32,780 nucleotides of DNA from Polyangiaceae bacterium. Its GTDB lineage: Bacteria; Myxococcota_A; Polyangia; Polyangiales; Polyangiaceae. The position numbers and the translations under genes were made by a program. The stretch covers positions 1 to 32,780 of the forward strand of contig JAPYTK010000039.1 in the NCBI GenBank assembly GCA_029941785.1. Direction: 5' to 3'. Positions within the stretch are counted from its first letter, which is position 1; every line of letters begins with the position of its first letter. The notes beneath the pieces are model-generated. The model was not told the DNA's origin and made no database searches. It saw nothing but the letters and a program-made list of their open reading frames with translations. Positions 1 through 5,715 of the stretch are shown in pieces.

Positions 1-69
<69 letters not shown>

Positions 70-222: not shown

Positions 223-894
223 TCAGAGCAGCGCCTCTATCATGCGGTGATGAAACTCTGCGTCGCGCGTAAAGTCGTTAAAGCGGATGACCCCCATCCT
301 ATCGATGATCACCGTCCACGGCGTCCCACCCGTACGGTAGTCACGCATCGTATTCGGTCGGCTCCGGGGATCGTTAGCGTCACTCGGTACGTCGTGACCA
401 ACAGGCCCCGCGATCTTCCACTTTCGCTGCTCCCTCTTCGCGCGCTCGAAGTCGTTGCTCGAGAATCCCTCGAAGGTGGTCTGCACGTAGATGAACGCGA
501 CCTGCCGACCGGAAAACGTTCGCTGTAGTTTCTTCGTCACGGGGAACCCCCGCTTTTGACATCCTGGTCACCAACCTTGAAAGGCGTACAGAACGACGAC
601 CTGACCCCGCAAAGCAGCCAACGATGCGGGAGCCCGATCACCGGAAGTCCAGCGAGCGATTCGTAGTTCCGGAGCGGGCCTTCCAACGAGCCGGTGCGCT
701 CCGCTGCGGCGCGCCCCTGTCGATGGCCCGTAACGCAAGCCAACTTCTTTCCGAGCTGAGATCACAGGCGGAAGCGGCATCGGTACAGCGGTCGCACGAC
801 CACCGCGCGACTGGCCCCGGCGGTCGTGGCAACCCGTTGTCGCCATAGATGCCAACACAAGAAAGCCGAGAGCCGCCACCGGGTGATGAGTCAT
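223..894 (-). CDS. Thioredoxin/TlpA-like protein with in-frame TGA at the active site: probable selenoprotein (Sec-Pro-Gly-Cys)
   Basis: On the minus strand an ORF from ATG 894 meets TGA at 570-568 and continues in the same frame to TGA 225-223. Reading the first TGA as Sec gives a 223-residue protein. Residues about 5-20 are hydrophobic (signal peptide or anchor; Cys22 has a non-canonical lipobox). Residues 70-223 have the TlpA/thioredoxin layout: VGRPAPEL, then strand VVVLYAFQGW, then U109-P-G-C112, then GFP, and the cis-Pro segment GGTPWTVIIDR near the C terminus. Family members have CPGC at the active site, so the TGA replaces exactly the nucleophilic Cys while Cys112 is kept. A hairpin with bacterial SECIS spacing follows. 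The expected role is an extracytoplasmic thiol/selenol oxidoreductase. The alternative is a TGC/TGT to TGA nonsense mutation; conservation of the second half and the exact position argue against it. The start is uncertain, because there is no strong Shine-Dalgarno and the frame is open back to 981. No sel genes lie in the window. Confidence 0.7.
535..561 (-). promoter_or_regulatory. SECIS-like hairpin just downstream of the in-frame TGA
   Basis: Reading the minus strand, the TGA at 570-568 is followed by a stem-loop. Lower stem: 561-558 with 538-535 (4 bp, one U-G). Then a 4-nt A bulge at 557-554 on the 5' side. Upper stem: 553-548 with 544-539 (6 bp, one G-U). The loop is GUU (547-545). The loop guanine is the 21st nucleotide after the TGA. 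Known bacterial SECIS elements lie within the coding region, place the apical loop about 16-37 nt after UGA, and have a G in the first two loop positions; all three hold here. The fold was made by eye, and SelB binding is inferred. Confidence 0.6.
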
Positions 895-1128
895 GGCTCG
901 TCCAAGGTATCGCAATCGCGACCAGCCAAGGCGTATTTTCGTTCCCGCGCAGCCAGGCTCCGGCGAGCCACACCAAGCCATTCAGGTGGCTCCTCCAAGA
1001 AAACGGTCGCTATCCGCCAGCGTCAAAATCTTCGAGTCACGTCATCCGAAGGGCCGCCGCTCGCATGGCTTCCACCGTCATTGGGCTGGATTTCTCGAAA
1101 ATTTTCTGCCAGAGATAACCCACGCCTC

Positions 1129-4287: not shown

Positions 4288-5715
4288 TCAACATGACCCG
4301 TGACCGCGGCGGGGAAAGATCTTGCCTGGATTGAGGATCCCCTTCGGGTCGAACAGCGTCTTGATGCGGCGCTGCATGTCGATCACCGCCTCGCTTTGCT
4401 CGAGCGGTAGGAACTCGGCCTTCGAACTGCCGATCCCGTGCTCTCCCGTCAGCGTGCCATCGAGTTCGATAACTCGCCGAAAGAGCTTGTCGAGCGCCGC
4501 GCTCACCTGGGGTTCATCGTCCGGATCGTCCCACAAGAGGTTGACGTGCAAATTGCCATCGCCGGCGTGCCCGTAATTCAACATGCGGACCCCGGTGTGC
4601 TCGCTGATCCGAGCGACGGACTCGATGAGTTCGACCATGTGCCGCCGGGGCACCACCACGTCCTCGGATATCTTGCAGCGGGCCATTCGGCGGGTCGTAT
4701 GCGACAGCTCGCGGCGGACCTCCCAGAGGCGTGAGCGCTGGGTGCCATCTTGGGCGACGAGAACATCGAGCGCACCGGCATCGATGGCCCGCTGACCGAG
4801 ATCCTCCATGGCTTTTTCGCAGCTCTGAGGGGTCCCATCGACCTCCATGATCAACAAGGACGAGGCCCGAGAATCGACCGCCACGCCTTGCTCGCGCATC
4901 GCCGTGAGGCACGCCTCGTCAAGCAACTCGAGGCAACGGGGCACGAGGCCCGCGGCGATGATGGCCTCCACGACCCTACCGGTGCTCGCCACGCTGTCGA
5001 ACAGACCGAGCAAGGTGATGATCTTCTCGGGCTTGCGGATGAGACGCAAGGTTGCCTCGAGGGTGATCGCTAGCGTGCCTTCGCTGCCCGTCAAGAGCGC
5101 CGTGAGATCGTAACCAGTGACGCCCTTGGCCGTTCGACGCCCCGTGCGCATGCGCTGTCCTGAAGCCGTGAGTACATCCAAACCGAGAACATAATTGCGG
5201 GTCACGCCGTATTTTAGCGCCCGTGGTCCGGCGGCGTTCGTGGCGATGGTGCCGCCGATCGCGCAGCTCGCGTGCGAGTTGGGGTCCGGGGGGTAGAGCA
5301 GACCTTCGGCCTCCACCGCGGCATACAAGTCAGCGACCCGAACCCCCGGCTGAACCACCGCTATCTGTTCTGCTCGATCGATCTCCTTGATATCGTTCAT
5401 GCCCAAGGTGCACAGCGCGATCCCCCCGCACACGGGCACCGCACCTCCCGCTTTGCCAGTGGCTGCGGCTCGCGGCGTGAGCGGTACGCCCAGATCGTTG
5501 GCGACAGCCAGAGCGTGCTGGATATCCTCGATCGACTCCGCCAGCACGACCGCATCGGGCACCACCGGCGCCTGATCCGACTCGTCCCCGGCGTGGCGTG
5601 CGCAGGCCTCTTCAGACGTGAGCAGCTTGCTTGGTCCCAACACCCGCCCGAGCGCCAAGCGCATCTTGTCGACGGTGGCCGCGGAGGGCCGCGAAAAAGG
5701 CTCGCGCTTCAGCAT
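4288..5715 (-). CDS. FAD-binding oxidase, GlcD/D-lactate dehydrogenase type
   Basis: 475 residues, the usual length for GlcD-like flavoproteins of the vanillyl-alcohol oxidase superfamily. The N-terminal half is the PCMH-type FAD-binding domain (PDAVVLAESIEDIQHAL, PRAAATGKAGGAVP, NSHASCAIGGTIATNAAGP). The C-terminal half carries the substrate and metal motifs GHAGDGNLHVNL and LTGEHGIGSSK, and ends with LFDPKGILNPGKIF. Such enzymes oxidise 2-hydroxy acids (glycolate, D-lactate, D-2-hydroxyglutarate); the substrate cannot be read from the sequence. No GlcE or GlcF partner is adjacent, so it may act alone. ATG 5715 lies only 28 bp from the divergent methyltransferase start. Confidence 0.88.
   Translation of the reverse strand: MLKREPFSRPSAATVDKMRLALGRVLGPSKLLTSEEACARHAGDESDQAPVVPDAVVLAESIEDIQHALAVANDLGVPLTPRAAATGKAGGAVPVCGGIALCTLGMNDIKEIDRAEQIAVVQPGVRVADLYAAVEAEGLLYPPDPNSHASCAIGGTIATNAAGPRALKYGVTRNYVLGLDVLTASGQRMRTGRRTAKGVTGYDLTALLTGSEGTLAITLEATLRLIRKPEKIITLLGLFDSVASTGRVVEAIIAAGLVPRCLELLDEACLTAMREQGVAVDSRASSLLIMEVDGTPQSCEKAMEDLGQRAIDAGALDVLVAQDGTQRSRLWEVRRELSHTTRRMARCKISEDVVVPRRHMVELIESVARISEHTGVRMLNYGHAGDGNLHVNLLWDDPDDEPQVSAALDKLFRRVIELDGTLTGEHGIGSSKAEFLPLEQSEAVIDMQRRIKTLFDPKGILNPGKIFPRRGHGSC

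Follow-up and report, generated by a model that had tools for sequence, protein, structure and literature searches.

The window, by which we mean the whole 32,780-nucleotide stretch of Polyangiaceae DNA analyzed here, carries on its minus strand a gene for a TlpA/AhpC-TSA-type redoxin whose reading frame is interrupted by one TGA codon (Table 1). From position 894 to 223 the frame contains this single internal stop, at 570-568, and reading through it gives a product of 223 residues in which residue 109 stands in the context YAFQGWUPGCQKRGFP. The read-through product matched the Pfam families AhpC-TSA (PF00578, 7.5e-9; 36 bits against a gathering cut-off of 26) and Redoxin (PF08534, 1.1e-7; 32.2 bits against 26.6) over residues 70-205, with the TGA inside the matched region and no frameshift. 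The TGA takes the place of the nucleophilic cysteine, the first Cys of the CPGC motif of AhpC-TSA/TlpA-type proteins, and this alignment column is Cys in relatives. An earlier note on this DNA had described a frame running through the TGA with similarity on both sides and a stop falling precisely on the active-site Cys, and both descriptions held. The residues that are invariant in the homologue alignment are all kept in the window protein, its downstream half included. Codon usage after the TGA favored the proposed frame (+0.185 bits per codon, with all five other frames negative), and the codon-usage signal before the TGA was weak (-0.183 bits per codon).

The start of the gene may be either ATG 981, which would give a protein of 252 amino acids, or ATG 894, which would give 223. 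Since a GGAGGAG sequence (996-990) precedes ATG 981 by 8 nt, position 981 is a serious candidate and the start at 894 is uncertain. Mechanical prediction broke the gene into two open reading frames, one at 568-981 and one, GTG-started, at 223-540. Thus, the earlier expectation that standard gene calling would split the gene was right about the 3' fragment, whereas the upstream fragment reaches ATG 981 rather than 894. A scan for sigma-70-type promoters found none. The contig start (window positions 1-60) contains a run of GCC/GGC repeats that reads as alanine- or glycine-rich in open frames.

Table 1. Features of the TGA-interrupted redoxin gene, in window coordinates.
Feature	Position	Strand	Basis or remark
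Predicted selenoprotein gene, TlpA/AhpC-TSA-type redoxin	223..981	minus	ORF, translation and Pfam; terminator TGA 225-223
In-frame TGA, proposed to be read as selenocysteine	568..570	minus	residue 109 when numbered from ATG 894; opens the UPGC motif
Thioredoxin-fold domain (AhpC-TSA / Redoxin) that includes the TGA	280..687	minus	Pfam
Candidate SECIS-type hairpin, GCGGGG-GUU-CCCCGU	539..553	minus	GUU apical loop 547-545, 20 nt after UGA
Shine-Dalgarno-like GGAGGAG upstream of ATG 981	990..996	minus	sequence; inferred
Hydrophobic, signal-like stretch with a terminal Cys (VLASMATTGC); a probable lipoprotein signal	829..894	minus	sequence; inferred
GTG-started mechanical ORF, what a standard caller might report for the 3' half	223..540	minus	start lies within the hairpin

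Downstream of the TGA lies a hairpin with the geometry of a bacterial selenocysteine insertion element. The published bSECIS rules call for a loop of 3-9 nt with a G in its first two positions, a stem of 4-16 bp, a distance of 16-37 nt between the UGA and the loop, and a minimum free energy of -7.5 kcal/mol or lower (PMC13188914). The window hairpin passed every one of these rules, with a GUU loop, 6 bp, a spacing of 20 nt, and -8.9 kcal/mol. When the gene was recoded synonymously 1,000 times, 0.8% of the recodings equalled the hairpin, and none of 80 Cys-containing relatives reached -8.9. Its z-score against dinucleotide shuffles was an unremarkable -0.8; because shuffling ignores the coding constraint, we set this value aside in favor of the synonymous recoding and the Cys-relative control. 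Scanned against Rfam, the window's first 2 kb gave no match, as would be expected given that bacterial SECIS elements vary.

The genome from which the window comes, a 415-contig draft of 6.03 Mb and 98.8% completeness, encodes the machinery for selenocysteine (Sec) incorporation. A selB gene scoring above its family cut-off lies on contig C55, adjoined by a tRNA-Sec with a UCA anticodon; selA lies on C14, and selD lies at the edge of C100, where the contig end truncates it at its 5' side. The earlier note had proposed looking for selA, selB, selC, and selD in this genome, and all four are therefore present, selD in 5'-truncated form.

The same genome contains other redox genes built in the same way. 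Eight of its 21 PF00578 matches contain a stop, each of them exactly one TGA at the catalytic Cys, and no internal TAA or TAG occurred among the 21. The eight motifs are the UPGC of the window gene together with TPGUT, UPYC, UPVC, UPFC, UPPC, UAGC, and USTC, the TPGUT gene being a canonical peroxiredoxin. The seven further genes lie on other contigs (L176, L178, L182, L185, L188, L189, and L190); several of them have lipoprotein-like N-termini, and L182 is a 646-residue frame in which a long N-terminal part is joined to the UPVC domain. Combined over the eight genes, hairpin strength exceeded that of recoded controls (p = 4.5e-6), and an (A)GUU loop was present in four of the eight (the window gene, L176, L178, and L182) versus 65 of 2,400 recoded controls. 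L178, L182, and L190 fell short of -7.5 kcal/mol when the energy of the hairpin alone was counted, and the simple scan gave no convincing hairpin for L188 (UPPC), so that its SECIS is unproven. As this count covers PF00578 matches, it gives at least eight selenoprotein candidates rather than a whole selenoproteome.

Relatives of the window protein with Cys and with TGA at residue 109, both of which the earlier note had suggested seeking, were found. All 80 loci returned by a scan of GTDB genomes, from many phyla, carry [FY]QSWCPGC at the site; the scan pattern demanded Cys, so this result demonstrates a strong Cys family rather than the frequency of Sec, and Sec forms were invisible to it. Three Cys relatives in the same phylum also align their Cys to the TGA column. 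Searches that allowed read-through recovered three further TGA forms (L034, L035, and L168) with the motif QKWUPGC. Within the class as searched, TGA occupied the site in four of five strong matches. These relatives belong to three genomes (G241, G366, and G501) of one genus in another family of the same class; in the two that were tested for Sec machinery, G241 and G366, a tRNA-Sec and selA were each present, selA being partial in G241. Their hairpin, GCGUUGG-AGUU-CCGACGC, also lies at a spacing of 20 nt, and the recoding test was weaker for these three genes alone (9-16%). In pairwise comparisons of the three, differences after the TGA fell at first, second, and third codon positions in the numbers 4/5/21, 4/6/20, and 1/1/13, and this excess at third positions indicates a translated protein under purifying selection. 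A quick tree separated the window protein from the remaining Sec forms and placed it, with weak support, close to a group on long branches. A tree constrained to keep the four Sec forms together scored a better likelihood, and the test did not reject it (p-AU 0.934). Sec may thus have arisen in these four forms once or twice, as judged from the sequences.

Taken together, the Sec machinery, the hairpin of SECIS geometry, and the TGA conserved in three relatives argue that the window gene, for which the earlier note had proposed a probable selenoprotein, is very probably a genuine one. The alternative that it is a recent pseudogene, in which a nonsense mutation would have made the TGA and left a relic downstream, draws on congeners without the gene (neither of the other two genomes in its genus gave a family member above threshold) and on a genome of the window's own family, G112, in which a Cys relative (L051, ~4800-5300) is decaying through a frameshift and upstream stops, indicating that the gene can be dispensable; selA and tRNA-Sec are both still present in G112. 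We nevertheless consider a pseudogene very improbable, as the stop coincides exactly with the catalytic Cys, three other species share the TGA and show purifying selection after it, the SECIS hairpin and the invariant residues are kept, and seven additional genes in the genome repeat the pattern. Decay after the TGA, which the earlier note had named as a result that would count against its reading, was looked for, and the downstream half proved conserved without a frameshift. A sequencing or assembly error, with TGC or TGT as the true codon and an ordinary Cys protein as the product, would take only a single base, and the assembly is a draft in 415 contigs. Its probability is slimmer still, however, in that independent assemblies carry the same TGA, eight such sites occur in one genome and all of them at the catalytic residue, and a SECIS hairpin absent in Cys relatives stands at the right distance. 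Across 17 other genes of the window, comprising 6,978 codons, internal TGA occurred 0 times, and TGA closes most of these genes; the codon is therefore a genuine stop in this genome, and its presence at residue 109 exceeds chance. These counts contradict a reassigned code in which TGA would be read as Trp or another residue throughout the organism, a reading that has the open frame and nothing else in its favor, has against it a complete Sec system and a TGA placed where relatives have Cys rather than Trp, and is rejected here as next to impossible.

If the gene is a selenoprotein gene, as we conclude, SelB carrying Sec-tRNA(Sec) would recognize the hairpin downstream of the UGA, and Sec would be inserted at codon 109 in place of termination. 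The product would be an oxidoreductase of the thioredoxin fold, similar to TlpA and redoxins, with UPGC as its active site. By the mechanism of the family, Sec109 would attack a disulfide, a sulfenic acid, or a similarly oxidized target, and Cys112 would resolve the resulting selenenylsulfide. In an AlphaFold2 model, the thioredoxin-fold core was of high confidence, and residue 109 lay immediately before a helix formed by residues 110-126. The solved structures nearest to the model were SPOA0173 (3eyt) and a Corynebacterium glutamicum thiol-disulfide isomerase (3lor), with TM values to the target of 0.85-0.89 and CPGC in the same place, followed by a Geobacter thioredoxin, DipZ, and ResA-type proteins. 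Both 3eyt and 3lor differ from the window protein in belonging to an FQMLCPGC-like subgroup with Cys. A related gene of the QMLCPGC type in another genome (L032, 51-455, G059) is broken by an in-frame TAG.

These structural neighbors also bear on whether the selenoprotein might instead act as a peroxiredoxin-like peroxidase, a possibility that concerns its function and leaves the selenoprotein reading as it is. In Pfam, the product is matched best by AhpC-TSA and Redoxin, and the genome's other PF00578 selenoprotein candidates include the TPGUT peroxiredoxin. However, the PxxxTxxU peroxidase motif of Sec peroxiredoxins (PxxxTxxC in the Cys form) is absent from the window protein, whose motif is QGWUPGC, and the nearest structures are 3eyt and 3lor and then thioredoxin, DipZ, and ResA-type proteins. 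On this evidence a peroxidase is unlikely, and a thiol-disulfide role is the one that we think probable.

The earlier note had also suggested a secreted or membrane-anchored product. The N-terminus of the window protein has a hydrophobic stretch followed by TTGC, and the corresponding segments are clearer in the TGA relatives (LLITSAC and LLITGAC); the product would probably be exported and may be lipid-anchored. The suggestion therefore stands as likely from the signal-like N-terminus, and the unsettled start codon qualifies it.

The genes that surround Cys relatives offer a lead to the physiological role. Among the neighborhoods of the 80 Cys relatives, raw counts gave MsrA in 11, MsrB in nine, and SelO in five, often directly next to the relative and spread over three phyla or more. 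L170, a Cys relative from the class to which the window belongs, also lies near SelO. A gene for MsrA, MsrB, SelO, or a glutaredoxin-like protein was seen near L116, L099, L089, L095, L104, L111, L114, L117, L120, L130, and L170. DUF3179 genes lie near four Cys relatives, identified by a Pfam match at L064 and by similarity at L088, L071, and L106, and DUF3179 is itself on a published list of selenoprotein families. The window gene lies close to the contig end with no redox neighbor seen; the Msr and SelO neighborhoods come from Cys relatives only. Because of these neighborhoods, oxidative-damage repair, for example the re-reduction of methionine sulfoxide reductases or their targets, would be the best lead to function, and a link to the repair of methionine oxidation is a tentative reading of them. 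Overall, the gene is well supported and its function modestly so.

Selenoproteins of related kinds have been catalogued. Prx-like thiol:disulfide oxidoreductase and Redoxin selenoproteins with a UxxC motif and PF00578 or PF08534 domains are known (PMC13188914; also PMC1794560), a related set has been described from ocean metagenomes (PMC2398784), and 11 selenoproteins were reported from Anaeromyxobacter dehalogenans in 2006 (PMC1794560). The window protein shares with the UxxC proteins their Pfam domains, Sec as the first residue of UxxC, and Deltaproteobacteria among the hosts, but it belongs to a subgroup with the pattern FQxWCPGCxxxGFPT...TxFEGxxxN, a distinction drawn from the published descriptions. 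Its identity to members of the FQSWCPGC redoxin family, a Cys family of many phyla (L052-L131), is 33-46%, with the same invariant residues; that family differs in having Cys for Sec and no hairpin of comparable strength in 80 members. A further ResA-like thioredoxin-fold family, NF041054 (WAxxUGC_long), carries U in its motif name, and the window protein scored 26.5 bits against its cut-off of 300, which places it outside that family. No Sec form of the FQxWCPGC subgroup was found in the literature searched, and the open-access literature, outside of which most subscription papers lie, held nothing relevant on selenoproteins of Myxococcota or Sorangium or on myxobacterial selenocysteine. The earlier view that this lineage is under-described is thus upheld for the subgroup, on which we found no paper, but not more widely, as selenoproteins with a UxxC motif in this domain (PMC13188914) and those of Anaeromyxobacter dehalogenans (PMC1794560) are known. 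It is conceivable, if somewhat doubtful, that at least eight of 21 AhpC-TSA/TlpA proteins, several of them lipoprotein-like, have been converted to Sec in this lineage and that FQxWUPGC forms a Sec subgroup, so far unlisted, within a family linked to Msr and SelO.

The use of Sec by myxobacteria is as such already on record. Standard annotation would miss or split the window gene and at least seven others, and the redox equipment of this myxobacterium would be misread. To a widespread family of Cys proteins, in which we came across no tested function, the gene would contribute a Sec member. The resulting natural Cys/Sec pair would let one ask what Sec brings to an oxidoreductase that appears to be exported, and the role of the family is made testable by the Msr/SelO neighborhood. 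If both the conversion to Sec and the Msr/SelO link are true, the repair of oxidized proteins in the cell envelope would draw on selenium-based chemistry.
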